A stretch of DNA of 26,234 nucleotides from the IMG/VR virus record IMGVR_UViG_3300032249_000302, positions 1 to 26,234 of that record; one strand, written 5' to 3'. The stretch comes from a virus. The position numbers and the translations under genes are program-made. Shown one piece after another: positions 3,944-23,485 of the stretch. Positions within the stretch are counted from its first letter, which is position 1. Each line of letters opens with the position of its first letter. A model generated the notes under the pieces. The model did no database searches. It had not been told where the DNA came from and saw only the letters and a list, made by a program, of their open reading frames with translations.

Positions 3944-4474
3944 CTAATTAGATTGGTTGTTATTAAGATACGTAGCGGCTGCCGCTAATATCTCGGGGTT
4001 TTCTTTTGCTACGCCTAAGAGTATATTACACTGTCGACATAAAAGGCCTCGTACACACTTTCCACAAGATCTCAACTGTTTAGAGCAACAATTGTGGTTA
4101 TGGTCAATGTGCGGTGATCTAAGTTTTTCAAACGACTGTGTACATATAAGGCACTTGCCACCTTGTTTAGCAAACATTTCTAAGAACTGTTCAACAGTAA
4201 TTCCGTACCGTTTTACATTTTGTCTTAAAGAATTTGCTTTAGCACACTCTCGGCAAGATCTACGATTCTTACACTTTAAAGTATTTTTATCCGTATACGC
4301 ATGTCCAGCAGGACAATGTGTTTTGGCTTTATTATGCCCACCTTGACCAACAGTCTTAGGTCTTCGGATCTTCATCCGTTCTCTGCGACAAGTTCGACAA
4401 TGGCGGTAACCACTCTTATCTATGTAGCTATTTAATTCTGTGTATTCATGTCCGTTAGGACAATCTTGTTTCAT
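3944..4474 (-). CDS. Endonuclease VII-type HNH endonuclease, likely homing
   Basis: 176 aa from ATG 4474, which has AAAGG six bases upstream. A GTG at 4510 in the same frame lacks a ribosome site. Two N-terminal treble-clef-like repeats of the form CPxGHxYT...CRxC occur at about residues 5-29 and 54-77. They are followed by an endonuclease VII domain: CLIC (108-111), the DHNH active site (124-127) and VRGLLCRQCN (zinc cysteines 146 and 149). The family cleaves DNA, either branched DNA or as HNH homing enzymes. Placement as a free-standing gene between the capsid gene and the next head gene is typical of phage homing endonucleases. The tandem zinc modules probably aid DNA binding. Confidence 0.85.
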   Translation of the reverse strand: MKQDCPNGHEYTELNSYIDKSGYRHCRTCRRERMKIRRPKTVGQGGHNKAKTHCPAGHAYTDKNTLKCKNRRSCRECAKANSLRQNVKRYGITVEQFLEMFAKQGGKCLICTQSFEKLRSPHIDHNHNCCSKQLRSCGKCVRGLLCRQCNILLGVAKENPEILAAAATYLNNNQSN

Positions 4475-4533
4475 GATTAGCCTTTCTGGTGAGGATTTTA
4501 ATTTCCCCACCAGAAAAGCTTATCACTTAATAG

Positions 4534-5604
4534 TTAATTTGTTTCCGCAATTACGACTGACTGATCGGTGATCAAACCAAGGCCGTAGATGGCGTACCAT
4601 GCGAGTGCGTGCTCACGACCGAAGTCCAAAATACCACCATCGCGGAGTTCGACTGGCAATGAAATTGCGTGGCCGAATGCGTTGTCACCAATGAAGATTG
4701 CAGAGAAACGATCTTTGTTGCCGTTACCTTGCTTGGTCACTGGGGATGTGTAGCCGCCACCGGTTGAGTAAACTGGTGCGACAGCGCTGTCTGTGGTGTA
4801 GCCTGAGCCAGCACCGTTAGGAACCTTTTCAACCTGAGTGGTTTCAATGAAAACACAGTCGTAAAGGCGACCGATTTCACCGAGCATGAAGTTACCTGGG
4901 GCAGCGTACTTCGAAACTTCGATGAATTCAGGATTGTCACGGAGCTTACGGCTCTGGTGTGGGTGAACAAATGCAACGTAGGTTTCGCCCAAACGAGGGA
5001 TGTTCTTGGTTGCGAGTGTTTCAACAGCATCCTTGATGACTGCAGGAGACAAGAAGAAGTCACCAGTCATAGAAGCGCGGCTTGTAGCCACAGTACCGTT
5101 GTTGTAAGCACCGTATTTAGCGGTAGAGACCTCAGGAGCTGAGTAACCGTAGATGACTGAAGATGCAGCCATAAGGGTGTCACGAGCCTGACCGTCAAGG
5201 TAGATTGCCATGTTACGTCCGAGCAAACGTGAGGCAGAAGCCATAACATCGTCGAAAGAAGCATTGAGCAAGAGTTCTGAAACTGCGATGGCGTAGCCAT
5301 GCTCAGCAACAGTGATGCTGAACTGCTGTGCAGTCAAAGCATTCGTCTGCATGCGGACACCTTCAACGAGTGCAGATGCTGCACCGAGGTTGTTGTAACG
5401 CATGAAGTTAATCTGAAGACCAGGTGCAACGCCGAGTTCGGTCTTCTTAACAGCGAACTGCTCGAAGCGAAGGATTGGCATTGACTGGAACAGAATTTCT
5501 TTTGACCAGATGGTCTGAATTGCCTGGGTTAGCTGTGAGCTAGTTCCCGAATAGGCTGTTGGGGACGCGGCGAGGCTGCCGGTTCCGGTGATACCTGATG
5601 CCAT
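4534..5604 (-). CDS. Major capsid protein (HK97 fold, N4-gp56-like)
   Basis: 356 aa from ATG, with AAGGAG about ten bases upstream. Residues 41-110 contain ILRFEQFAVKKTELG, INFMRYNNL, LVEGV and VAEHGYAIAVSELLL. This is the pattern I associate with the N4-gp56 family: an FxxFA start, an EGV loop, then a QYG/EHG-like helix. The rest is typical of HK97-fold capsid proteins, including a late LVxPHQSRxLRDNPEF-like segment. It follows the coiled-coil scaffold and the portal in the usual order. It would assemble into the icosahedral head. There is no obvious N-terminal delta domain, in keeping with a separate scaffold protein. Confidence 0.85.
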   Translation of the reverse strand: MASGITGTGSLAASPTAYSGTSSQLTQAIQTIWSKEILFQSMPILRFEQFAVKKTELGVAPGLQINFMRYNNLGAASALVEGVRMQTNALTAQQFSITVAEHGYAIAVSELLLNASFDDVMASASRLLGRNMAIYLDGQARDTLMAASSVIYGYSAPEVSTAKYGAYNNGTVATSRASMTGDFFLSPAVIKDAVETLATKNIPRLGETYVAFVHPHQSRKLRDNPEFIEVSKYAAPGNFMLGEIGRLYDCVFIETTQVEKVPNGAGSGYTTDSAVAPVYSTGGGYTSPVTKQGNGNKDRFSAIFIGDNAFGHAISLPVELRDGGILDFGREHALAWYAIYGLGLITDQSVVIAETN

Positions 5605-5649: not shown

Positions 5650-6438
5650 TTAACCGAAAAGACCCTTGCCACGCTCAGAAGCTGCCTGACCTAGGAGCTT
5701 AGTGCGATATTTTGCGTATTCTGTAACCGACATAGCAGAAATTTGTTCTGCCGTAATTGATTGTTGTTCCGAATTGGTGTCCAAGGGGCCTGAGGGAGGT
5801 GCGGTTACCCGACTTCCCGTCATTTCACGACGTTCAGCTCGCATAGCTGACTGAGCCGCTTCAATAATGCGAGCTGAGCGTGTAGCCAAGCTTGCAATGC
5901 TTTCCTCAACTTCAGCAGGGGTGTTACCCGTGATGAGGTCGATGAGTTCTGGAATGATGTTATCGCGCTCTTCTTCCAAGCGACGGGAACGGTACTCAGT
6001 AAGTTCTGCAAAAGAACGTTCACGCTCAAGCAATGCGAATGCTTTTTCGCGCTCATTACGCTCTTCTTCAAGTTTGGCGTCACGAGACTGTAGTTTTTCT
6101 TCCCACTCGGTTTCCTTCTGCTGAAGGAGCGCACGAATGTCCATTTCTTCTTCCGCTTTACGCTTAGCAGCTGCTTCCGCTTCTGCACGCTGGCGGTCTT
6201 GTTCTACAGATCGTTCTGTCTCTAGCTTCTTAAGGCTGGAGAGTTCTTCCTTTAGGGATTCGATCTGTGGATAAAGCTTTGATTTTTCCTGTTCCCGAAC
6301 TTTCTTCAGATCATCCTCTGTGTAGCGGGTGTCTGGAGTGTTTGTTGCGGGATCCTGAGTTACTGATGCTGGATTAACTTCTTCGAAGAAAGATCCTTTT
6401 GCTGCTTCAATGTACTCATTAGAGGTTGGTGTAGACAT
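5650..6438 (-). CDS. Head scaffolding protein, coiled coil
   Basis: 262 aa from ATG with AAGGA upstream. Residues about 45-150 are a long, highly charged helix rich in Glu, Lys and Arg (KKVREQEKSKLYPQ, ERDNIIPELIDL). The C-terminus carries a helix-like TAEQISAMSVTEYAKYR segment ending in SERGKGLFG. Portal, scaffold, capsid is the classic head gene order, and this composition matches phage scaffolds, which fill the procapsid and leave before or during DNA packaging. The EYAKYRxxLLG ending resembles the capsid-binding tail of other actinophage scaffolds. No protease motif is visible in it. Confidence 0.75.
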   Translation of the reverse strand: MSTPTSNEYIEAAKGSFFEEVNPASVTQDPATNTPDTRYTEDDLKKVREQEKSKLYPQIESLKEELSSLKKLETERSVEQDRQRAEAEAAAKRKAEEEMDIRALLQQKETEWEEKLQSRDAKLEEERNEREKAFALLERERSFAELTEYRSRRLEEERDNIIPELIDLITGNTPAEVEESIASLATRSARIIEAAQSAMRAERREMTGSRVTAPPSGPLDTNSEQQSITAEQISAMSVTEYAKYRTKLLGQAASERGKGLFG

Positions 6439-6567: not shown

Positions 6568-8226
6568 TCAGTAGTCCCCTTTGTCAGGGTTTCTGCGTTG
6601 AGGAATTTTAGTTCCATAGGCTTTAGTTACAAGGTCTGTCTGTAACTGTCCTACGGTTGCTGCTTCGAATGGAGTAGTCTGATCCATTCCAGGCATTGGC
6701 TGGCTGTTACCCTCTGCGTCAGGCAAAATACCCGTAAGCAAAGAGATAGCTGAATTGATTTGGCTCTTAAGCAAGTTAAGTGCGCCATCAGATTTAGCAT
6801 CATCGACCATCTCTGCGCGAATCTCTTCGAGTTTCTCGTCAGGGAATTCTTCTCCAAGCTTGCGCAAGGCTCCTTCACGACTTTCCAGGTTCATGCTCAT
6901 CATGGTTTGAATCTCGTTCAAGACGATCAACTTATCCAGAGGCAATGGTGGTGGGAAGTGAACTACTGACTCATAAGTAATTGGGTCATTAGGGTCAAGT
7001 TGTGGGAGCTGTCCCTCTTTTAGAGGACCATTAATCTCAGGATTGTAGGTAAGAAGCTCAGGTTCTTTAACAGCTAGTTGTAGCATAATCAATTCGTTGA
7101 TTCTTTTAATGCCAAAACTGTATTGAATAATCTTTTGTTGGTATTTATTCATAAGTGGCTGATACTGAATTGAGAGTGCTACACCGGAAGTGTTAGAGAT
7201 TGCTTGAACTTGGCCGAGTGCACTTTCAGGAACACCGACCATCTCATGCATAGATGTTTTAAGAAGTCGTAGGTACTCCAAACCGCCTTGAATACCGGCT
7301 GCTCCACCCTCAAGGTTAAACACCTGAGAGTCTTTAGGAAGTCCAGCCCATACCTTCTTGGCACCTTTTTCAAGTTGGTTTGCTTTTGCTCCAATAATGA
7401 CAGTAACAGGAGCAGCGTGGTAGTTAATGATGTCTGCGATGTCGGTAGCAACTTCATTATAGTTTCTATTAATAACAATAATGTCGTGACAATCGGAAAG
7501 GCCCCAAGGTGATCCAGAGACATGCACGTTAGGAATATGTACCACAGGCACTGTTCCTAGTGGGTTTTCTCTAGAGTCAATAAGTTCATCGTTAATGTAC
7601 TCTTCAATACGGTCATCCGTAAGAATTTCAGTGTAAGTGTATACCTGACGAGTACCTTCTAGGGATGTACCCCAGAAACGGTATTTAAGTTTAAAACGAA
7701 TAAGTCTGTTTCTATCATGTGGGTGAAACTCCGGGAAACAGAACGAGGAGTTAAGAGGAAGGATCTTTGCCTTACCTGGATGGTATCTACCAATGGAATC
7801 TTCGTAAGCTTCTTCATAAGCTACCTTGACAAAGCAGTCTCCAGAAACTCCGCCTTGCTGGCCCATTTCCCAAAGAACTCTGTGCTTGTCATTATCTGTG
7901 TCCCACACTCTTTTAAGAATGTCAGGAACCATAGCTTCGGTTTCTTTAGGACTACGGAATTGAACTCCGCGACCAAAAGTGAAATTAACTAGGTAATCGG
8001 TGAACGCTCTGTAGTAGTTGTATACCATCTGAGATTCACCGATCTCACGTCTGTAAGACCAGTGGTGGCCTAAGTACATTGCCCAGTTGAGAGAGTATCG
8101 GTTAAGGCGTGGTCCATGAACTTCAAATTCTTCGTCAGCAAGCTCTACTAGACCAAGAGGTGAAATAGAGATGGTGAGGTCAGATGACGCCGCCCTATAA
8201 CTAGGGGGTGAAAAGTCAATGCTCAC
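6568..8226 (-). CDS. Portal protein
   Basis: 552 aa from GTG, with AGGAAGG six bases upstream. It matches the SPP1-gp6-like portal pattern. There is an N-terminal region with YNYYRAFTDYLVNFTFGRGV (about 69-88), a wing region, and then an INRNYNEVATDIADIINYHA helix (252-271). Next come the APVTVIIGAK strand (272-281), LEYLRLLKTSMHEMVGVPESALG (316-338) and the stem/tunnel helix SGVALSIQYQPLMNKYQQK (347-365). The portal forms the dodecameric channel at one capsid vertex, where terminase docks and the tail attaches. It sits just upstream of scaffold and capsid, as usual. Confidence 0.9.
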   Translation of the reverse strand: MSIDFSPPSYRAASSDLTISISPLGLVELADEEFEVHGPRLNRYSLNWAMYLGHHWSYRREIGESQMVYNYYRAFTDYLVNFTFGRGVQFRSPKETEAMVPDILKRVWDTDNDKHRVLWEMGQQGGVSGDCFVKVAYEEAYEDSIGRYHPGKAKILPLNSSFCFPEFHPHDRNRLIRFKLKYRFWGTSLEGTRQVYTYTEILTDDRIEEYINDELIDSRENPLGTVPVVHIPNVHVSGSPWGLSDCHDIIVINRNYNEVATDIADIINYHAAPVTVIIGAKANQLEKGAKKVWAGLPKDSQVFNLEGGAAGIQGGLEYLRLLKTSMHEMVGVPESALGQVQAISNTSGVALSIQYQPLMNKYQQKIIQYSFGIKRINELIMLQLAVKEPELLTYNPEINGPLKEGQLPQLDPNDPITYESVVHFPPPLPLDKLIVLNEIQTMMSMNLESREGALRKLGEEFPDEKLEEIRAEMVDDAKSDGALNLLKSQINSAISLLTGILPDAEGNSQPMPGMDQTTPFEAATVGQLQTDLVTKAYGTKIPQRRNPDKGDY

Positions 8227-9107: not shown

Positions 9108-10667
9108 TTAAAAGAACGGAGAAGTACTGACTTCTATCGTTGGCATAACCATATCCTGTGTAAGAGCCACTGCAATGGCTAAAGAATCAACAAAATCGTC
9201 ATGTGCGTGAGCTTCATCAGGAGCTGCCACGGTGAAGTTAGGTCCCTTGTATTTAACTTCGGCGTCTGTCATTTGCTGGTAAAAACGCTTCCACATACGC
9301 AAACGGCGCGTTTTAGCGTGGGCAGGCCAAGAAATCATGCGCCTCTGAATCAATGCTTGAAGATGTTTCCAACGCTTAGACTGCTCTACAGAACTGGAAG
9401 TAATTGCGTGCACTTCAGCTCTAGGTAGTAGGAGCTTTAGCCGTTGAGCTACAGCGTCACCAACGCCGTTGGAGTCAACACCTACAGCAGCAACATCGTA
9501 GTTAGCCAGGAAGTTGACAATCTGGAAATACTGTTCTTCCCAGTCATCGCCCTGGATTTCTAGCCAGTTAAGAACTCGGTGATCGTAGTAGCCAAACTCG
9601 TCTGGTCTATCCCAGTCAACCCAAATAACAGTAACTACTGTGCTGTCCATCTTTCGGGCAGGGTCTACGCCAGCAATAACTGGGCTACGGTGCCAGCTTT
9701 TTACTAGTTCTTGTGAGGTATCGCCTAGTTCATCCATGATTGTGCTTGTTACAAACATGCCTCGTTCTAGGAGCCACTTACAACAATACGACATTTGGAA
9801 CTCGTCTGAGTCCTCTCCAATGCGAAGCATCTCTTTACGAATAAACTTTTCGTAGTTAGGGTTGCACTTAGCAACATCTCTCCAGTCCCACTGGTAATGG
9901 TTCTGTTTTGCCCGGCTACTAGTCTGTCTGCGGCGATTAAATTGAATTGCTTTATAAAAATTATTTTTACTTGTAGTGGGAGTGCCAGTTTTAACCATAG
10001 TGGCGTTGTAGTACGCACCCATTGGGCTGATAGATTTAGCAACTACAAAGTCGTCAGCTTCCTGGCACTCGTCAATAACCATTAAGTGAAACGACTTAGA
10101 TTCAATCTTTGCACGAGGGTTAGCGGTCATCATCATCAAGTTAGAACCAGAGTTTTTAAGTCTGATGTTTCGAGTAACGCCAGGTACTTTGTCAGTTAGG
10201 TCATCAATTTCTGGGTCGCCAAGAACTTCAAGAGCTCTCTCTGAGGTTAGTCTGGAGACTGTACGACCAAACAAAGTTTCAGCCTGTGACTGAACAGGGG
10301 CAAACATGCCCACTAAGATTCCATCTTTAAACTTGCCCAGTAGATCAGGGTACATTTTTGCAAGTCTTGGTAACAAAACCATAAGAGTAGCCACGGTATC
10401 GGCTACTGTTTCAGATTTACCTGACTGACGGGATGCCAAGGCAGTAATCTCTTCACCGTCATTAATGAGGACGGACTCAATAATTCTTCGTGCCAAAGGC
10501 TCTTGATAAGGGTGAAGTGAGTGCCCTACAAGAACGACCATAAACCTCATGATCTTATCTACCAGCATGTTGATAAACTCTTTAGAAAGCTCATCAACCT
10601 CTTCTTCTAAGTCTTCTTCAAAATCTTCTTCGAGGATTTCTTCAAACTTGCCCTCGTCAATCGACAT
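9108..10667 (-). CDS. terL: Terminase large subunit
   Basis: 519 aa from ATG with AGGAC upstream. ATPase domain: Walker A-like ASRQSGKS (78-85), Walker B LMVIDE (195-200) with catalytic E200, and the coupling motif KTGTPTT (226-232). RNase H-like nuclease domain: acidic residues at GVDPA (D335), GVDSN (D398) and HDDFVDS (D490/D491/D494). It pumps DNA into the procapsid through the portal and cuts the concatemer. The N-terminus has an unusual acidic run (residues 10-27, mostly Glu and Asp) before the ATPase core. It overlaps the upstream 82-aa gene by 11 bases. Confidence 0.95.
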   Translation of the reverse strand: MSIDEGKFEEILEEDFEEDLEEEVDELSKEFINMLVDKIMRFMVVLVGHSLHPYQEPLARRIIESVLINDGEEITALASRQSGKSETVADTVATLMVLLPRLAKMYPDLLGKFKDGILVGMFAPVQSQAETLFGRTVSRLTSERALEVLGDPEIDDLTDKVPGVTRNIRLKNSGSNLMMMTANPRAKIESKSFHLMVIDECQEADDFVVAKSISPMGAYYNATMVKTGTPTTSKNNFYKAIQFNRRRQTSSRAKQNHYQWDWRDVAKCNPNYEKFIRKEMLRIGEDSDEFQMSYCCKWLLERGMFVTSTIMDELGDTSQELVKSWHRSPVIAGVDPARKMDSTVVTVIWVDWDRPDEFGYYDHRVLNWLEIQGDDWEEQYFQIVNFLANYDVAAVGVDSNGVGDAVAQRLKLLLPRAEVHAITSSSVEQSKRWKHLQALIQRRMISWPAHAKTRRLRMWKRFYQQMTDAEVKYKGPNFTVAAPDEAHAHDDFVDSLAIAVALTQDMVMPTIEVSTSPFF

Positions 10668-14586: not shown

Positions 14587-15024
14587 CTACTTTACTGATG
14601 CTTTTAGTTGCCATGACCATTTTTGGTGCATGTCAATGCGGTCTGCAATAAAATTAGCGACACCTTGTTCGTCAAGACTGTCTGCTACTTTGAACACTGC
14701 TTTGAGTTGACCAATGAGGAACTCATTGCCTTCAAGCAAGTCTTTAGCTAAAGACTTAGCGTCATTCATTGTACGTGAGTTATCAGGGAGAGTTTTTAGT
14801 TCAAGGATCCTGTCAAGACGGAAGGGGGCAAATTCTCCAAGTTTACGAATATTTTCGGCTAGCGGGTCAATAGACCCGTAGATGTCTTCGTAGATATCCC
14901 CAAACAAACCGTGGTATTGCGCAAAATCAGGTCCTTCAATATTCCAGTGATGCCCGTGTGCACGAAAGTAAAGGGCTACTACATCAGCTAGCAGTCCTCG
15001 TAACGAATTAATTAGTCCATCCAT
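14587..15024 (-). CDS. dps: Dps-like ferritin-superfamily protein
   Basis: 145 aa. The Dps ferroxidase signature is clear: HHWNIEGPDF (H26), YHGLFGD (H38) and IDPLAENI (D53, E57), with the family spacing (H26 to H38 = 12, H38 to D53 = 15, D53 to E57 = 4). The third ligand from the first subunit (Asp four residues after the second His in bacterial Dps) is Gly42 here, with Asp43 next to it, so iron oxidation may be altered. Dps proteins form 12-subunit shells that store iron, remove peroxide and often bind DNA. The basic N-terminal DNA-binding tail is absent. A phage copy could protect DNA or manage iron during infection. No good ribosome site is visible before the ATG. Confidence 0.85.
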   Translation of the reverse strand: MDGLINSLRGLLADVVALYFRAHGHHWNIEGPDFAQYHGLFGDIYEDIYGSIDPLAENIRKLGEFAPFRLDRILELKTLPDNSRTMNDAKSLAKDLLEGNEFLIGQLKAVFKVADSLDEQGVANFIADRIDMHQKWSWQLKASVK

Positions 15025-15806: not shown

Positions 15807-18455
15807 TTACGCTCTAGGCTCTTCAGTAGGTTCTACCGGAGGACGTACACCACTAGCAACAATGTTTTTGAGTCTTCGAGCTTCTAGACTCTTACTGCTT
15901 GCGCGTCCTGGGTTAACACCAGATTTAACAACTTTACCGCCACTAGTAGAACCTGGGGCTGGCTTAGGAGGTTCTGGTACATTACTTTCCGGTCTTACAG
16001 GCGCAGCTAACTGTCCTGGGTAGTTGGCTGCTAGTTCTTGACCCAAACCTGAAACAGGAGCTGCGGCAGTTGTACCTGCGTTAGCCACTGTCGGGGTGTT
16101 TGTTGCGGCTGGATTTCCTGCACCGGCAGCTGTTTTACGAAGTTTTCTATCACTTTCGCACTGTCCACAGCGTGGGGCGTGAGCAGGTCCTGCAGTCGTA
16201 GTAACAAACTTATGCCCCATAGGGTTAGTTGGAGTTGGGACATAAGATCCGTCTCCTCTAAGACCATTCTCATGGATTACTGAGCTTGGGTCAGAACCGA
16301 CTCTGGCTGCAGACAAGATGTCCTGCGTAGAAGTAGCGTTGTTATCTTTGCGAATGCCTCTACTTGAGTTTTTAACTCTAGCCTGAGTTAAAGCTAGAGA
16401 ATGTTTTGCTAGATTGTCAATGTAATCTGACACAGCGTTTCTCTGTCCAGGTGCTAGTGCACGGTTACCATCACGCACGTGCTCATGTACACGCTCCATT
16501 GCACCAGATGGATCTGGCTGCATTGCAGGTGCTTTAGGCTGAGTACACTGAGGACACACCTTGTTGAAGTCTACTTCAGACTGTCGTCCTTTTTTACGAG
16601 ACTTTGTAGTAGCACAGTCTGGGTTGTTACATGGACGGAACATAGGGGTTTTGCCATCATCTGACGTAACCGGAATCATTCTAGGCTGAGACAAGACTCG
16701 TTTTGTTTTAGATCTGACCTCAGCTGGCTTTGTAACCTCTCCAGCTGCGTTTCTAATTTCAGGGTAATTAACATCCTGCATAGAGGCTCTGTGCTGCTCA
16801 ATGACACCACGTAGACCAAGAGCAGCGTTTACAACTGTAGCTGACTGATCTCCAGCAGAACGGTTGGTGTAACGTGCGTAGTCATTATCAAATTTCTTAG
16901 CGGCACCTGTTTTGTAAAAATAATCAATTATGTGAGCTTTTGGAATGTTAAGAGGGGTGTTAGTTACAGCGCCTGTTTTAGGGTCAGTTGATGGCGTTGA
17001 GTAATTTTCACTCATGTGGGCTTGAATTTCACCAATTGCCGTTGAATACTCGCCGATAGACTCAACAATATCTATTGGCTCAACCATCCCACGTTCAGCA
17101 GGAGCGTCTGGGGTAAGAGTTCCTCTAATAGCTGCGTTAGGGTCTGCAGGAGGCTCATGGGCAATTACGTGATGAGTAACATTTCCAGATTCATCTATAG
17201 TTTTTTCAAGAGCAAAGTTTCCAAATTTAGGGTGAGATTCATACGTAATTTCTGAAAGATTTGCGTTAGATACTGCGTTATCACGTTTAGTATTAGCAGC
17301 CTCAAAGTTTATAACTGAACGCTCGTTAGCCTTAGAAGCTGCAAAGTTCTGTTCCGCTGCAATTCTTTCATTAACGCTTTTACGAACAGTAGCTTGGGTC
17401 AGATTTGCCGGTGTTTTACGACGTTCAGCTCTTGCACCAGATCGCGTTCGGACTGCTTTGAAATTTACACCTCTTACGCTTGGGGTCATATTTCCGTCAC
17501 CAGTTCTAGCAGAATATGCACGTGGAAGGGCATCACGTTCTGCTTCAGGAACTGCGCCGGTTACACCTGGGACTCTACCAGCTTGTGGTGCGTAGTTATC
17601 AGGAGTAGTGCTTCCTTCAACAGGACCAACGTTAGGTTCAAAACCTTTGTCATCAAATTTAACTACATCGGACGGAGAGCCACTGTATCGAGAACCAGAA
17701 ATGGCAAGGTTACCTGTAGGTGTTTTACCTGGGGCAACGTCCATACCTGCAGCCGCTGCTTCAGGAGAAGTAGATCCAGCTGCTGGTAGAGGAATTCTAG
17801 CCATGCCTGCTTGTCGAGCTTGTTCTTTAGAACCACGCTCTACAGATTTAGCCATCCAATCTTCCCACTGGTCTTTAAAAATAACTCCAGCAGTAGGATC
17901 TTGCGGAACGTTCTGTAGTGGGGTAACAACTGGTTGACCTTGTGCGTCGGCAGTCTCCATTACTGAAGGGATAGTTCTAGCCCGTCTAGGCTGATCTCCT
18001 CTTCTAGGAATAATAGGTGATCGACCACCGGTGCTAACGCTACCAAGATTAGTACCAGCAAACTGAGTGCTGACGTCTTTTCTATTTTTAGCACGGGTTA
18101 GCTCATTAATAATGCTTCCGTACAAAGGGGTCTTTTTATGACCTAGGTCGCCATTTGGATGCTGGTGGAGAGTTACACCACCGTTGGCAATTAAAGATTG
18201 GAAAACACTTGCATTAGCGTCGTGGTCTTTTTGGTCTTGCTTAATTTTCCCCATCTTTTTACCAATAGCCTGGGAACCAAATAGCATATCTTTACCGGAA
18301 TCAACACCTTTAGTAGCAACCTCTTGCTGCTCATCATAGCTAAGGTCTTTAGGACGAGAATTCACATACCGGCTTTGCAACTCTGCTTGAATAGCAGGTG
18401 ACATAGGGTCTACTTGCTGGTACTCCGGAGTATTCTCGGGTAATTCTCTAATCAT
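15807..18455 (-). CDS. Large low-complexity protein with CxxC motifs (possible internal virion protein)
   Basis: 882 aa from ATG, with AAGGA in the upstream spacer. Most of it is Pro/Ala/Ser/Thr/Asn-rich and probably disordered, with scattered basic patches (RRGDQPRRARTIP, SGARAERRKTPA). A helical stretch lies near the middle. Cys is confined to CNNPDC...CPQC and, further on, CGQC near HAPRC, which look like one or two zinc sites. No tape-measure hydrophobic segments, lysozyme or protease motifs are visible. It is followed downstream by small proteins, holin and Dps. Such long, basic, low-complexity phage proteins are sometimes carried inside the capsid. That role is only inference. Confidence 0.7.
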   Translation of the reverse strand: MIRELPENTPEYQQVDPMSPAIQAELQSRYVNSRPKDLSYDEQQEVATKGVDSGKDMLFGSQAIGKKMGKIKQDQKDHDANASVFQSLIANGGVTLHQHPNGDLGHKKTPLYGSIINELTRAKNRKDVSTQFAGTNLGSVSTGGRSPIIPRRGDQPRRARTIPSVMETADAQGQPVVTPLQNVPQDPTAGVIFKDQWEDWMAKSVERGSKEQARQAGMARIPLPAAGSTSPEAAAAGMDVAPGKTPTGNLAISGSRYSGSPSDVVKFDDKGFEPNVGPVEGSTTPDNYAPQAGRVPGVTGAVPEAERDALPRAYSARTGDGNMTPSVRGVNFKAVRTRSGARAERRKTPANLTQATVRKSVNERIAAEQNFAASKANERSVINFEAANTKRDNAVSNANLSEITYESHPKFGNFALEKTIDESGNVTHHVIAHEPPADPNAAIRGTLTPDAPAERGMVEPIDIVESIGEYSTAIGEIQAHMSENYSTPSTDPKTGAVTNTPLNIPKAHIIDYFYKTGAAKKFDNDYARYTNRSAGDQSATVVNAALGLRGVIEQHRASMQDVNYPEIRNAAGEVTKPAEVRSKTKRVLSQPRMIPVTSDDGKTPMFRPCNNPDCATTKSRKKGRQSEVDFNKVCPQCTQPKAPAMQPDPSGAMERVHEHVRDGNRALAPGQRNAVSDYIDNLAKHSLALTQARVKNSSRGIRKDNNATSTQDILSAARVGSDPSSVIHENGLRGDGSYVPTPTNPMGHKFVTTTAGPAHAPRCGQCESDRKLRKTAAGAGNPAATNTPTVANAGTTAAAPVSGLGQELAANYPGQLAAPVRPESNVPEPPKPAPGSTSGGKVVKSGVNPGRASSKSLEARRLKNIVASGVRPPVEPTEEPRA

Positions 18456-18488
18456 TGTTTTCCTTCGCTATTCTATTCGGGTAATCTT

Positions 18489-19253
18489 TTAGTCTTTGTC
18501 TGGGAATGGTAGATTGGTCGGCATTTTTTCGCGACGAGATTTAACATCTGACGGGTTATCTCCTGCATCAGACAAATTGCTTGAAGTTCTAGAGGGGTTA
18601 GTTAACCGGTCACGGGCTTCTAGTTTTTTAAGTTTTTTAACTCCCTCGCCAAATTTCTTTACCGAAGCATCAGCAGCAGGGTTCTTAGGCCCAATAGATT
18701 TACCTGTAGTGTTTGAAATCGGGTCAGGGAACCTCTCACTAATAGTTTTGCCTTTGTTACCCTTGTTTCCCTTATTGGGAATTTCAGCTCCATTTTCATC
18801 AAGTGGCCTTGGTCGTTGAATCTGTTCAACAGTACCTTGAGATTGATTGCCATACTTAACAGCGCCGGATTTTGGGTCTACAGAAACATCTTTCATATTT
18901 TTTGCATGTTCTGGACCAACAGTTTTAATTATGTCTGCAAGCATGCCCTTGCTAGATTCCCTGCGACTTTTCTCCGTAGTACGCTCTTGACCAGCCCTGT
19001 GAGCATCTTTTTTCATGTCTTCAACGGTTCGGTGAGAATATTTTTGATTCTCAAACCCAAGGTCAACGCCTCTTTGTTGAGTGTAAAAATCAAGATCCAT
19101 CTGCTTTTGGGTATCTCGAAGGTCTAAAGCATTCTGGGTAGCTTTCTTTTGGCCAAGAAGACCAAACAGAGCACCGGTAAGGCCACCTCCACCGTTATTT
19201 TGTCTACCATCAGAGTTGGGATCTATCGCCCATTGGCGAGCACGGAATACCAT
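18489..19253 (-). CDS. Hydrophilic hypothetical protein
   Basis: 254 aa from ATG, without a convincing ribosome site. It is Lys/Arg/Asp-rich and mostly helical or disordered. A Gly-rich N-terminal piece (NNGGGGLTGALFGLLGQKK) is followed by a helix (NALDLRDTQKQMDLDFYTQQ) and a triple NKG repeat (NKGNKGNKGK). A short hydrophobic patch (GALFGLLG) is too short to span a membrane. Its N-terminus resembles the start of some phage internal or ejection proteins, but I cannot assign a family. It is co-directional with the 882-aa gene, 33 bases apart. Confidence 0.6.
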   Translation of the reverse strand: MVFRARQWAIDPNSDGRQNNGGGGLTGALFGLLGQKKATQNALDLRDTQKQMDLDFYTQQRGVDLGFENQKYSHRTVEDMKKDAHRAGQERTTEKSRRESSKGMLADIIKTVGPEHAKNMKDVSVDPKSGAVKYGNQSQGTVEQIQRPRPLDENGAEIPNKGNKGNKGKTISERFPDPISNTTGKSIGPKNPAADASVKKFGEGVKKLKKLEARDRLTNPSRTSSNLSDAGDNPSDVKSRREKMPTNLPFPDKD

Positions 19254-19310
19254 AAGAAGATAATCTACTTTCTAGTTAAAAATGTCTGCGTAAACTTATC
19301 AGAGTTTGTA

Positions 19311-19730
19311 TTAGTTAGATTCCTGCGGTGTAATCTCCCGCAAAACCTTTAAGCCTTTTTTAGAGCGTACTTCTTTTACTGGACCATCTGGACCATGAGT
19401 TCCGTGCCAGCGATCTCTTTTTTGTGCCTCTACTTCGTACACTCTAGGAGACTTACTGCCTCCGTCTTGATTATTTCTTAAAGATGCGTAGCTAGTAGCC
19501 GTGTCTTGATCTGGGGTGGAGTATGCCCACGGAGACATACTTGATTGAGAGTCAATGATGTCACCAGGTTTGAATTCATGAGTAGTGCCGTGAAATAAAC
19601 GAGCTTTATGAAACTCATGGCTACGACTTACTCGCTGAGCTTCAAAATTATTGGCCACTGCCTCCACCGTCTCCGCCTCCACCGTCGGAAGCTGCTCCTC
19701 CGCCATCCTGAGCAGTCCACCCTTGGCCAC
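19311..19730 (-). CDS. ADP-ribosyltransferase-like protein (Arr/ART type)
   Basis: Up to 139 aa from GTG 19730; internal GTGs at about 19666 and 19657 could serve and would shorten the overlap with the upstream gene. The ART pattern is RLFHGTTHEFKPGDIID (H47), SPWAYSTPDQDTATSYA (Y70) and RVYEVEAQ (E99/E101). This matches the H-Y-[E/D] layout of Arr-like and phage ART domains: HGT after a beta strand, 'A(Y/W)ST' with a following helix, and a late VYxVE strand. Such enzymes move ADP-ribose from NAD onto proteins, nucleic acids or small molecules. Phage versions (T4 Alt/Mod) modify host RNA polymerase and other targets. The target here is unknown. The basic C-terminus follows the core. Confidence 0.65.
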   Translation of the reverse strand: MAKGGLLRMAEEQLPTVEAETVEAVANNFEAQRVSRSHEFHKARLFHGTTHEFKPGDIIDSQSSMSPWAYSTPDQDTATSYASLRNNQDGGSKSPRVYEVEAQKRDRWHGTHGPDGPVKEVRSKKGLKVLREITPQESN

Positions 19731-19911
19731 TGTCTATATAGCCACTGTTTTGGTAGTTACTACCTGTGGTTGTTGACGTATAACCACCACCGTAGTTCCA
19801 CAGCGGATACATCCATGATGCATAGTGTGGGTACGTGGGCACCACAACTCCGCCAACTAAGGCGAAGTGTGGAGCGACACGGTTTTTAAACTGATGGCGT
19901 TTTCTATGCAT
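19648..19911 (-). CDS. Gly/Tyr-rich small protein
   Basis: 87 aa from ATG, overlapping the previous stop as TAATG. The N-terminus is basic (MHRKRHQFKNR). A Tyr/Trp/Pro segment follows (PTYPHYASWMYPLWNYGGGY), then a Gly/Ser tail (DGGGGDGGGSGQ). This is low complexity of the kind seen in structural or condensate-forming proteins. Its last 83 bases overlap the longest form of the ART-like gene in another frame, so one of the two starts is probably shorter than drawn. No known family. Confidence 0.5.
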   Translation of the reverse strand: MHRKRHQFKNRVAPHFALVGGVVVPTYPHYASWMYPLWNYGGGYTSTTTGSNYQNSGYIDSGQGWTAQDGGGAASDGGGGDGGGSGQ

Positions 19912-20477
19912 TACTTTTCAGACGTCGCTCTTCTATAGGAAGCTGCTGTAGGCCCTGTGGCCACTGCTCTCATTGGGCTACTTGGCATTGGCTTTTTTGG
20001 CTTAGGCTTAAGACCCGCACCGCCGCCATTGTCTTTTGGCCGCCATTCTTTTGGTGGGTTCCTATAGGAACCGCCATGGTCCTTTGGAGGATTCTTATCG
20101 TTGTCTTTAGGATGGAGTTTACTTCCTGAGCCTTCTTTTTTAACGTACTTACGATTATTATCAGAAGTTTCTTTTAGAGTGCTAGACAAACCTCGTTTTA
20201 CAACGCCTTTAGACTTGTTGTCTTCAGATTGGTTAGTAGAGCTACCAATAGCGGTGCGTTGCCCAAGACTTTTTAGGTAGAGATTTCTGTCAGCCCTTCT
20301 TTTAGCAGCTTTAGGATCATATGACTGAATTGATTCTTTTTTCTTCATTGCAGGCTTAGCAGAGTTGCTGTCTTTATTGCTAGACGCTGTAATACCAGCT
20401 TTTTTAGCAGCAGTAGCTACCTTCTTAGGATCTCCAGATCCCTTTTTAACTGTCTTGTTTTTGTCTTTGTTAAACAT
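19911..20477 (-). CDS. Lys-rich basic protein
   Basis: 188 aa from ATG. It is strongly basic and low complexity throughout (KKGSGDPKKVATAAKKAG, PKAAKRRADRNLYLKSLG, GLKPKPKKPMPSSP). It probably binds DNA without sequence preference or neutralises packaged DNA. The single non-repetitive piece is the RNLYLKSLGQRTAIG region. It starts after an AT-rich 75-base gap that may hold a promoter. Neighbouring genes are also basic and low complexity, so a shared role (internal virion or DNA-associated) is plausible but unproven. Confidence 0.55.
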   Translation of the reverse strand: MFNKDKNKTVKKGSGDPKKVATAAKKAGITASSNKDSNSAKPAMKKKESIQSYDPKAAKRRADRNLYLKSLGQRTAIGSSTNQSEDNKSKGVVKRGLSSTLKETSDNNRKYVKKEGSGSKLHPKDNDKNPPKDHGGSYRNPPKEWRPKDNGGGAGLKPKPKKPMPSSPMRAVATGPTAASYRRATSEK

Positions 20478-20552
20478 GTCTGTAAATTTTCCTATCTGTA
20501 TTTAAAAAGTTAAGCAAAAAGATTAGAATATAAATTAAATTTTTGCAAGTTG

Positions 20553-21254
20553 TTATGATTTATCAACTTTATCTGCAAGTCCTCTAAGAAAGTGTCCTGC
20601 TCTAGAACCAAACGATCGAGCAGGGTTAGACCCTCTATTTGCTGGGGAACCTGAAGTCTTTGAAGATGGTGTAGACCAAGGGTCAGCTTTTGATGCGAAT
20701 GGGTCAGCTTTTCCTGCTGAACTCCAATCGTACTCAGGTTCTTTTCTAGCAGGAGGGGTCGCGCCTTTAGGTGCTTCTGCTTCTTTTCTAGCAGGTGGTG
20801 TTGCACCTTTGGTAGTTGGATCAGCACTTGTACCCATATGGTCTAAAGTGACTCCTGGGAGATTCCATGTAGGTTTAGGACTTCCAGATTTACGTGCTGC
20901 GGTTAAAGCATTAAAATAATCGTTACGTGCTTTTTGTACTTGGGTGTCGGTAGTACCTGACGCAAGAGCTTCATGATGTGCATTAAATTCATCGCGATCC
21001 ATTGGAAGAGCAGATACAGTTTTACCACCAACGGTCATTGAATACCCATGTGGGAAGTCAGAACTTCTTGGGGTTCCACGCATATCAGAAAACTGTTTCA
21101 TATAAACGCCATGGTCTGGTTTACCATCTCCACGACCTGCAGTAGGTCCACGGAAATGCGGATCTCCAGAGCCTTCTCCTAGTCTTTCAGACGAAGAGCC
21201 TGAGCCCCGTGTTTTAAAAGAACCGTCTTCATTTAAGTGTTCTGGTCTTGCCAT
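20553..21254 (-). CDS. Low-complexity hypothetical protein with KGATPPARKE repeat
   Basis: 233 aa from ATG, with AGGAG upstream. The N-terminal half is polar with Gly, Asp and Ser. A middle section (TVGGKTVSALPMDRDEFNAHH, RNDYFNALTAARKSG) could fold. It is followed by a tandem KGATPPARKE repeat (encoded near 20742-20813), a DP-F/W-rich repeat (KADPFASKADPWS) and a basic C-terminus (RSFGSRAGHFLRGLADKVD). The DPF/DPW-type short motifs are unusual in a phage protein. No family recognised. Confidence 0.55.
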   Translation of the reverse strand: MARPEHLNEDGSFKTRGSGSSSERLGEGSGDPHFRGPTAGRGDGKPDHGVYMKQFSDMRGTPRSSDFPHGYSMTVGGKTVSALPMDRDEFNAHHEALASGTTDTQVQKARNDYFNALTAARKSGSPKPTWNLPGVTLDHMGTSADPTTKGATPPARKEAEAPKGATPPARKEPEYDWSSAGKADPFASKADPWSTPSSKTSGSPANRGSNPARSFGSRAGHFLRGLADKVDKS

Positions 21255-21301
21255 TATGTTTTCTCCTAGAGTTAAGTAGTAAATTAAATGTTATTCTGTG
21301 T

Positions 21302-21871
21302 TTAAGCTTTGGTCTGCGTGTAAACGTGGACTTTACCGCCAGAGTTAACGTCGTGTCTAATAGCAATAGACACGGCTTTACTCAGGTGTTTAGTAGCAGC
21401 ACTAAGCGTTGATGACGAATGCGCATTTAAAGCCTCTAAGGCCCCTAGAGCAAGTTCTCCACCCGTTCCTGTGACAAAGATGCCACGTTCTTCTCGTTCC
21501 CACGAGTAATCTTCAAATAGATGGTAAAGCTGGCCTTTGATTGCAAGGATGAATTCAGAGTCATGGCATGCCACATCTCCGTCATCTTTCATTTCATAAC
21601 CAGCTTCTATAAAAGCTACTCGGATTGAGGGAATGAGAACAGTTGTTACCCAAACGTCTAGATTTACGTTTGCGGTAGGTTTAGGAGCTTTCCACCCATA
21701 GTGGAGGATATTAGACCCTCGTGAGGATCCAGCGCCTGCAATTAAAATTCCGTTGTTGTCTACAACTTTTCGAGAAACAGTTTCAAGATACCTACCGGTT
21801 TCTAGTGTGGCTTTAGAGTCACACCCAATAGCGACCCAACCATCACCTTGAATAGCTGCGATAGTTGTCAT
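21302..21871 (-). CDS. Proteasome beta/HslV-like N-terminal nucleophile hydrolase
   Basis: 189 aa. Removal of Met1 exposes Thr2 as the nucleophile in TTIAAIQGDGWVAIGCDSKAT. In mature numbering Thr1 and Asp17 fit the proteasome exactly, and the SRKVV lysine is at 34 (33 in the family). A late TGTGGELALGALEA segment matches the GSGxxxALG loop. RHDVNSGGKVHVY supplies the Asp174/Ser177 pair (Asp166/Ser169 in proteasomes). This is a complete T1-type active site with no propeptide, as in HslV. Such enzymes cleave peptide bonds or act as Ntn hydrolases. It overlaps the metallopeptidase stop as ATGA. It might mature virion proteins or act in the host. No ATPase partner gene is visible here. Confidence 0.8.
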   Translation of the reverse strand: MTTIAAIQGDGWVAIGCDSKATLETGRYLETVSRKVVDNNGILIAGAGSSRGSNILHYGWKAPKPTANVNLDVWVTTVLIPSIRVAFIEAGYEMKDDGDVACHDSEFILAIKGQLYHLFEDYSWEREERGIFVTGTGGELALGALEALNAHSSSTLSAATKHLSKAVSIAIRHDVNSGGKVHVYTQTKA

Positions 21872-22689
21872 TTAAGTTTGTCCCTCTCAGCAATCATATA
21901 ATTGGCAACGTCTTCATCTGACTCTTGGCGAACAGGTTGGTTTAAAGTTGAAGGTGCATGCTGCGGGTATTTAATATCTTTTGAGTTGGGGTCATCAGTC
22001 CAGTTAGCTTTTTGTTCGGCTAAAAATTTATCTCCGCCACGAGTAGCTCGATAAGCGTTAAAAAAGTGGCTAGTTCTTTTAGAATTGGGGTTTTTAGGGG
22101 CCCCATAAATAGCTTCCTCTATAGCTTGTTTGTAATAAGCTGTCCCTAAAGGACCAATACGATTAACTTTTCCCTCCGTAAAAGTACTTTGCCTATGCAA
22201 CTCTTCATAGTTATCAGCGTCTGCTTCAAGTACGCCAGTAGATATATCTTTTCTTTTTCTTTCTTCTTTTAAAGGTACATGAGATATATCCCTAGGCAAA
22301 TGAGCAAGTAGTTGTCTACCCGTTCCTCTTTGCCTGTGGTGACCAATTTCATGTACAAGTATTGTTCCCATATGGTCTGAGGCAATTCCACGTGATGGGT
22401 CTAGGTTATTTCTTCCAACGACCTCTCTTATGTGGATAGACTTATCATGGGGGTCGTAATGCCCCTGAGCAGTTGGGACATTTTTATGTGGACTACCAAC
22501 ATTAACGCTACCAATACCCTGAAGGTGACCTGCTGGAACAGTGGAGATAGCTATCTGATGGTGTACAGCACTCTTCTGGCGCGTTTCATCATCTGAGTCT
22601 CCACCTCGGGAGTATACATTTATTTTGCCATCTAATGCTTTAGCGGCATCTTTTACTCTGGCATCATATATTTTACGATCGTAATACAT
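21868..22689 (-). CDS. HExxH metallopeptidase-like protein
   Basis: 273 aa from ATG. The zinc site HEIGH (113-117) sits in TILVHEIGHHRQRGTG. A downstream LEADADNYEEL (E155) could give the third ligand, as in ImmA/IrrE-type and other gluzincins. The N-terminal part (residues 1-100) and the C-terminal ~90 residues look like phage-specific extensions. There is no signal peptide, so it would act in the cytoplasm or virion. Start is before the ATGA overlap with the proteasome-like gene, so the two peptidases are probably made together. Family-level assignment beyond 'HExxH peptidase' is not possible by eye. Confidence 0.7.
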   Translation of the reverse strand: MYYDRKIYDARVKDAAKALDGKINVYSRGGDSDDETRQKSAVHHQIAISTVPAGHLQGIGSVNVGSPHKNVPTAQGHYDPHDKSIHIREVVGRNNLDPSRGIASDHMGTILVHEIGHHRQRGTGRQLLAHLPRDISHVPLKEERKRKDISTGVLEADADNYEELHRQSTFTEGKVNRIGPLGTAYYKQAIEEAIYGAPKNPNSKRTSHFFNAYRATRGGDKFLAEQKANWTDDPNSKDIKYPQHAPSTLNQPVRQESDEDVANYMIAERDKLK

Positions 22690-22697
22690 GGCAGGGG

Positions 22698-23048
22698 TTA
22701 CCGGTAGCCTTGGGTATCTTCAATATGTTTGGTGCGGGCTAAACGTGCCATATGGTCAGCACTTACTGCTCCACCACCCATGAGCTCGTACTCTTCTACG
22801 CTAGGCTCTTCGTAGACTGCCCGATCGGCTCCAGCCTCGCCCGAACGATCTTGGCGTTCCATGAGGGCATCTGCTGATAGTGGAGCTCTACCGCTGACAA
22901 AGTGTTCGTGTAAGACCTTAGTGTCTTCATTATAGGCATCTCGAGCCCCTTCGCTGCGACGCAAGAGTTCCATCTCGTCGTTGAGGTTGCCTTTACGAAA
23001 TATAACCTGTTCTGCAGCTTTTCCGAGCTGACCTGACCCTGGATGCAT
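22698..23048 (-). CDS. Hypothetical acidic protein
   Basis: 116 aa from ATG 23048, which has AGGA six bases upstream. A longer frame to 23153 has no ribosome site and would overlap the ParB-like gene. It is charged and helical (LNDEMELLRRSEGARDAYNED, ADALMERQDRSGEAGADR) with an acidic middle (YEEPSVEEYELMGGG). No Cys and no membrane segment. It lies between the ParB-like and metallopeptidase genes. No family recognised. Confidence 0.6.
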   Translation of the reverse strand: MHPGSGQLGKAAEQVIFRKGNLNDEMELLRRSEGARDAYNEDTKVLHEHFVSGRAPLSADALMERQDRSGEAGADRAVYEEPSVEEYELMGGGAVSADHMARLARTKHIEDTQGYR

Positions 23049-23122
23049 GAGCAGTCCTACTTTCTGTATGAATGAATGAAATGTTACAGCAGTCCTAGCC
23101 ACTGTGTACCTATATAGCTGTC

Positions 23123-23485
23123 TCAGACTTCCCAGAGTTGCTTGTCGTCCCACATGTCTTTGTCTGTAGTCGTGAACTTCACTGGAACACCGGCAGCCAT
23201 TGCAGCAGCTACCCTGTGATGGCCATCCTGCACTTTATTCTCAGGAGTCTTGACATTCACAGGACTGTTCATACCGTTGACCTTCATATCCTCGACCATT
23301 GCGTGATAGGCCTTGTTGCCGTCCTCATCACGATCGAACTCAGGATGTTCCGTAACTTTATCCCACGACTCTGAATACTCACTAGGTGCGTACATAGCTG
23401 TGAACTCATGAGCTGGCATTGACCCGATCTGGTCTTTGTGCTGTTCCATGCTCAAATTACGATTGAACGTCTCTTTTGCCGCCAT
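23123..23485 (-). CDS. ParB/sulfiredoxin-like domain protein
   Basis: 120 aa from ATG, with AAGGA nine bases upstream. Residues 60-110 give the ParB N-terminal pattern: AYHAMVEDMKVNGMNSPVNV, then DGHHRVAAAMAAGVPVKF (87-104), where DGHHR is the core nucleotide/phosphate-binding motif. ParB-like phage proteins can be nucleases, CTP-binding DNA proteins or small-molecule modifiers. The C-terminal DNA-binding part of true ParB is absent. It is the first gene of the leftward block, facing the rightward genes across a ~330-base gap. Confidence 0.75.
   Translation of the reverse strand: MAAKETFNRNLSMEQHKDQIGSMPAHEFTAMYAPSEYSESWDKVTEHPEFDRDEDGNKAYHAMVEDMKVNGMNSPVNVKTPENKVQDGHHRVAAAMAAGVPVKFTTTDKDMWDDKQLWEV

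Follow-up and report, generated by a model that had tools for sequence, protein, structure and literature searches.

Proteasome homologs encoded by phages have been described under the names PPH and AAH (Fuchs, Alva, and Lupas, 2021; PMC8665760). The same study reported no AAA+ partner for them, no telling genome context, and no AAH in actinobacterial phages, and phage proteasome homologs have so far been without a known function or an informative genomic setting. The DNA analysed here (the window) is a stretch of 26,234 nt representing positions 1 to 26,234 of virus record IMGVR_UViG_3300032249_000302, and it encodes a proteasome-type hydrolase of 189 amino acids (Table 1). A phage-borne enzyme of this kind is already known, and the remark of the earlier note that it would be unusual for a phage was too strong, given the homologs described in 2021 and the more than 500 viral contigs encoding relatives of the window protein. 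These relatives tell more than the window itself, since they supply the missing context in the form of a slot next to the portal gene, exchange of alleles at this slot, and probable actinobacterial hosts.

Table 1. Positions of the hydrolase gene, the overlapping ORF and the packaging and head genes in the window.
Feature	Position	Strand	Basis or remark
Proteasome-type (T1, Ntn) hydrolase, 189 aa	21302-21871	-	Residues, profiles and fold
Ribosome-binding-site-like GAGAGGGA preceding the hydrolase ATG	21872-21888	-	Read from the sequence; reverse complement GAGAGGGACAAACTTAAATG
Orphan ORF, 273 aa, with HEIGH motif and downstream EADADNYEE stretch	21868-22689	-	Putative zinc metallopeptidase by motif alone
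Terminase large subunit	9108-10667	-	78-83% identity to whiB-bearing relatives of ~100 kb; assigns the window to group B
Portal protein, SPP1 type	6568-8226	-	75-79% identity to group B relatives
Coiled-coil-rich protein, encoded between the portal and major capsid genes	5650-6438	-	Probably scaffold-like, from position and composition
Major capsid protein	4534-5604	-	85-88% identity to group B relatives

The hydrolase, whose N-terminus reads MTTIAAIQGDG, is a genuine member of the proteasome superfamily, and its likeness to the other members is not due to chance. It exceeds the curated cut-off of Pfam family PF00227 (Proteasome; E 1.9e-7, 31.4 bits against a cut-off of 22.4) and matches PHROG 1040, annotated as "peptidase HslV family", over residues 1-186 (E 2.4e-21). 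Among the structures in the PDB, a profile of the hydrolase and its relatives matched HslV best (E 4e-11), BPH with an E value of 2e-8, and also the 20S beta subunit. An AlphaFold2 model based on 23 aligned sequences (pLDDT 80, pTM 0.79), the fine details of which should be taken with caution because the remaining four runs scored 48-55, was assigned by Foldseek to the proteasome-type fold (E 4e-9); it gave Z values of 17.7 to 20S beta, 17.2 to BPH, and 17.0 to Anbu, and contains helices at residues 51-57 and 71-89. The T1/Ntn fold proposed in the earlier note is thereby borne out. Scores for the equivalog families are far lower, with 18.8 bits for HslV (TIGR03692, cut-off 157.75) and 26.6 bits for the archaeal 20S beta subunit (TIGR03634, cut-off 224), and we class the protein with the group I-like proteasome homologs, its fold being of the HslV/BPH kind. 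Bacterial and archaeal genomes were scanned twice with sequence patterns, which reach close relatives only, and yielded no relative of the hydrolase, and a search of plasmids gave a single partial match (27%).

A view on the active site shows that Thr2, Asp18, Lys35, Gly48, and Gly135/Gly137 (initiator Met counted) are identical in all 160 viral relatives. The first three correspond to Thr1, Asp17, and Lys34 if Met is not counted, and the equivalents in the proteasome site are Asp17, Lys33, and the oxyanion Gly47. The intact Thr-Asp-Lys site that had been read from this protein alone is thus confirmed over the whole set, and the oxyanion glycine is equally invariant. The numbering used at that time was mixed, with Asp17/Lys34 given without and Thr2/Asp174/Ser177 with the initiator Met, and only part of the residues named has stood: Thr2, Asp17, and Lys34 are invariant, but Asp174 is not conserved, this position being occupied by Asp in 98, Thr in 33, Ser in 24, and Asn in 5 of the 160 relatives. 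Residue D166 also differs across the hydrolase types described below. The residue equivalent to Ser129 of the proteasome is Thr136 in the window copy and Ser in 159 of the 160 relatives, which, as judged from the alignment, is a conservative change private to this copy and was overlooked in the earlier note. Median dN/dS values lie at 0.045-0.128 within the genomic contexts and, together with the invariant active site, indicate that purifying selection acts on the hydrolase, which is probably catalytic.

The start of the hydrolase gene overlaps via ATGA with an ORF on the same strand that carries a HEIGH sequence, the sole HExxH motif among the ORFs of the window. The ORF and the overlap are both present as first reported, and they would fit a module of two enzymes, in which the threonine hydrolase and a HEIGH metallopeptidase work jointly. 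We regard such a module as very improbable, because the HEIGH ORF has no relatives in viral contigs (searched with peptide patterns), in phage records (tblastn), in 32 related phage records, or in more than 400 loci searched with phmmer, and because none of the 154 other hydrolase loci contains an HExxH ORF within three genes of the hydrolase. The overlap itself carries little weight, as among the 28 gaps between same-strand genes of the window, 15 are just as tight (10 nt or less, or overlapping), and tight packing of genes is therefore ordinary here. The best profile match of the HEIGH protein, DUF6647, stays under the cut-off (E 0.051), and its single-sequence structure model reached a pLDDT of 35. 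A conserved pair with an HExxH peptidase is largely refuted by these data, and the functional coupling proposed before is not supported: the two genes are paired in this contig alone, which tells little about function.

The terminase, portal, and capsid proteins of the window are 75-88% identical to their counterparts in phages of ~100 kb, which are referred to as group B in the following. A block on the minus strand (15807-23485) has no BLAST counterpart in four close relatives, with the exception of the hydrolase, which is 53-58% identical. Several other minus-strand genes of the window may be mentioned in passing. A small ParB-like protein (23123-23485; PHROG matches with E about 1e-5) heads the hydrolase operon, and a 139-aa ORF (19311-19730) resembles Arr-type rifampin ADP-ribosyltransferases at a score below the cut-off (PF12120, E 0.0012). 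A Dps/ferritin-like protein is encoded within the virion-gene block (14587-15024; PF00210, E 4e-15), and an HNH-like ORF with CxxC motifs adjoins the capsid gene (3944-4510) and is missing at that place in four relatives.

The genomic surroundings of the hydrolase were surveyed in 155 loci, comprising 99 distinct hydrolase DNA sequences and the window, and its presence was additionally scanned for by starting from neighbour genes, taking the best-scoring 80 loci with near-copies included (63 distinct slots in group A). As judged from gene order, the relatives, which occur in freshwater phages, fall into four settings. Group A shows the order terminase, portal, hydrolase, small protein, giant protein (~1000-1760 aa), scaffold-like ORF, and capsid, and the hydrolase directly follows the portal gene at a distance of 18-114 nt in 75 of the 78 assessable loci among the best-scoring 80. 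Three group A loci (L215, L216, and L217) are devoid of the hydrolase with the flanking genes intact. In group B, the lineage of the window, the hydrolase stands between genes for a small protein and a PASTA-like protein, followed by a giant protein, several kb upstream of the terminase gene; this upstream position was found in 18 of 22 assessable loci among the best-scoring 80, the number being small because most contigs are too short. Group C has the order hydrolase, phosphatase-like protein, histone-deacetylase-fold protein, and terminase, and contains the hydrolase in 40 of 63 assessable loci (again among the best-scoring 80), and group D represents another setting with four loci. The hydrolase is thus located between the portal and capsid genes in group A, but not in groups B, C, and D or in distant phages. 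Two neighbours deserve mention in their own right. Of 35 distinct group B loci with enough flanking sequence, 22 carry an Hsp20 gene upstream of the hydrolase, at a distance of no more than five genes (e.g., L068:2975-3499), which may indicate a link to proteostasis, and the histone-deacetylase-fold protein encoded between hydrolase and terminase in group C matches PF00850 with an E value of 1e-55 (e.g., L040:7154-8074).

Three types of hydrolase, represented by 40, 11, and 5 distinct proteins, occupy the slot of group A, with mean identities between types of 29-42%. The type changes 11 times on a tree of the portal proteins and 13 times on a tree of the N-terminal part of the giant protein, the latter ruling out that the hydrolase type travels together with the downstream giant protein. 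The exchange is best seen in L175 and L181, which share 86% DNA identity upstream and 78% downstream of the hydrolase, whereas the hydrolase proteins are only 34% identical; homology ends ~24 nt inside the gene and returns ~22 nt before its other end. This is an exchange of the hydrolase as a single gene. The pairs L180/L185 and L180/L187 had been considered as further single-gene swaps and were rejected, since the giant protein differs as well (46%). In the literature searched, which mostly did not extend to subscription papers, no description of a portal-adjacent exchange slot in actinophages was found.

The hosts of the phages carrying the hydrolase are probably Actinobacteria, as suggested by whiB genes in all 26 long related records tested. 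WhiB has been used as a marker of actinophages (PMC6802176; PMC10202952), and in a control search over 14 genomes it was matched in Corynebacterium only. The actinobacterial host assumed in the earlier note is thus supported; for the window, which is a fragment, it is deduced from the relatives. Two cultured freshwater actinophages, the Planktophila phages LanE43AprE7 (E7) and AprF5 (F5; OX376640/OX376641), which infect "Ca. Planktophila" (PMC10202952), also carry whiB and a relative of the hydrolase. It consists of 178 amino acids and is encoded 15-17 nt after a portal gene whose product is 86-88% identical to the portal of group A; it belongs to type 3, with 54-56% identity to other type 3 copies and ~28% to the window copy. 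The database records of both phages carry no gene annotation, and the publication describing them (PMC10202952) does not name a proteasome or protease in its main text. No HslU was found in the same number of related records (26) by a search that was positive in 14 of 14 control genomes, which agrees with the earlier description of the enzyme as lacking its own ATPase; these records may be fragments, and an HslU of the host is possible.

Taken together, the hydrolase may best be regarded as a self-compartmentalising threonine peptidase without an ATPase of its own, acting on host or misfolded proteins rather than in head maturation, a reading that we favour tentatively and to which we would assign slightly less than an even chance. 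Removal of the initiator Met would expose Thr1 as N-terminal nucleophile, to be activated by Asp17 and Lys33/34; with the Thr placed immediately behind the Met, a propeptide should be dispensable. If HslV and BPH are taken as a guide, the subunits would assemble to rings enclosing the active sites, and without a cognate unfoldase the enzyme would be expected to cleave peptides and those unfolded or loosely folded proteins that enter unaided. Its position suggests that it is probably expressed late, together with the head genes, in the infected actinobacterial cell, where host factors or misfolded phage protein may be degraded or clipped.

The most serious competitor of this interpretation is maturation of head or ejection proteins, in which the hydrolase would be packaged or act in the prohead and cleave scaffold, portal-associated, or giant virion proteins in place of the usual prohead protease. 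The location in group A speaks for it and against the reading favoured above, since the gene follows the portal gene in 75/78 loci (among the best-scoring 80) and precedes the genes for the giant protein, the scaffold-like ORF, and the major capsid protein; the position upstream of the terminase in group B (18/22 among the best-scoring 80) and the lack of S78, ClpP-like (S14), and S49 proteases in group A or B records point in the same direction. On the other hand, L215-L217 retain the rest of the module without the hydrolase, an allele of only 33-34% identity can take its place without a matching change in the portal or giant protein, and in group D and distant phages the gene is found away from the head genes. 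Moreover, an S78-type prohead protease domain is present in three group C records, one of which (G007) also has the hydrolase (a weak match), and in Psychrobacter phage D'Alembert a head maturation protease is annotated in addition to an Ntn protein. In the window, the capsid protein also has no long N-terminal extension resembling a delta domain, and a scaffold-like protein is encoded by a gene of its own. The gene absences, the exchange of alleles, and the S78-type domains in group C weaken head maturation as the sole reading; the virion maturation suggested in the earlier note is still conceivable from the group A position but rather unlikely, and substrates of host or misfolded origin fit the exchange of alleles better. 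Interference with the proteasome of the host, likewise suggested in the earlier note, is a conjecture on which the data bear neither way.

A narrower form of the favoured peptidase reading would see the hydrolase as a host-directed protease for counter-defence or takeover at a fixed slot next to the portal gene, with alleles being swapped because the targeted defence or regulatory proteins vary between hosts. Single-gene swaps at a fixed slot, the accessory occurrence in group C (40/63 among the best-scoring 80), and the lack of relatives in the two scans of bacterial and archaeal genomes are consistent with this. Still, the hydrolase gave no match in a library of anti-phage-defence proteins, there is no known target, most counter-defence genes are not as nearly universal as the hydrolase is in group A, and neutral recombination can equally produce the exchange of alleles, so that we consider this form unlikely. 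Even less probable is a non-proteolytic Ntn hydrolase or peptide ligase. Connectase sets a precedent for a ligase with a proteasome-like fold (PMC8665760), and the types differ from one another at D166 and around helices H3/H4, but the best matches (HslV, BPH, and 20S beta) are all peptidases, and the model shows no connectase-like insertion of two helices between strands 3 and 4.

Compared with the known systems, the window protein shares with HslV and BPH the fold and the top profile matches among solved structures, but differs from HslV in scoring under the equivalog cut-off and in the lack of an HslU partner in the 26 related records. PHROG 1040, which is matched over nearly the full length by the window copy and by type 2 of group A (E 3e-28), provides a family name only. 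Full-length relatives are annotated as "ATP-dependent protease subunit HslV" in Actinomycetia phage DSL-LC01 (35% identity) and as "protease" in the Arthrobacter phages Pitbull and Hum25 (28%), but none of these genes is adjacent to the portal gene. Phages E7 and F5 do encode a portal-adjacent proteasome homolog, but of the type 3 allele, unlike the window copy; as their host is in culture, they are open to functional tests. An active enzyme would represent a viral proteasome-type protease standing on its own, in phages that infect very abundant lake bacteria. With PPH and AAH it has in common the phage origin, the HslV/BPH-like character, the Thr/Asp/Lys site, and the absence of a propeptide and of any cognate AAA+ ATPase found. 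The PPHs are shorter (~140 residues) and devoid of helix H2, whereas the window protein has 189 residues and helices at 51-57 and 71-89, which sets it apart from them. The AAHs, compared here by their description, were reported from no actinobacterial phage and without a telling context, whereas the relatives of the window hydrolase have probable actinobacterial hosts and a clear genomic context.
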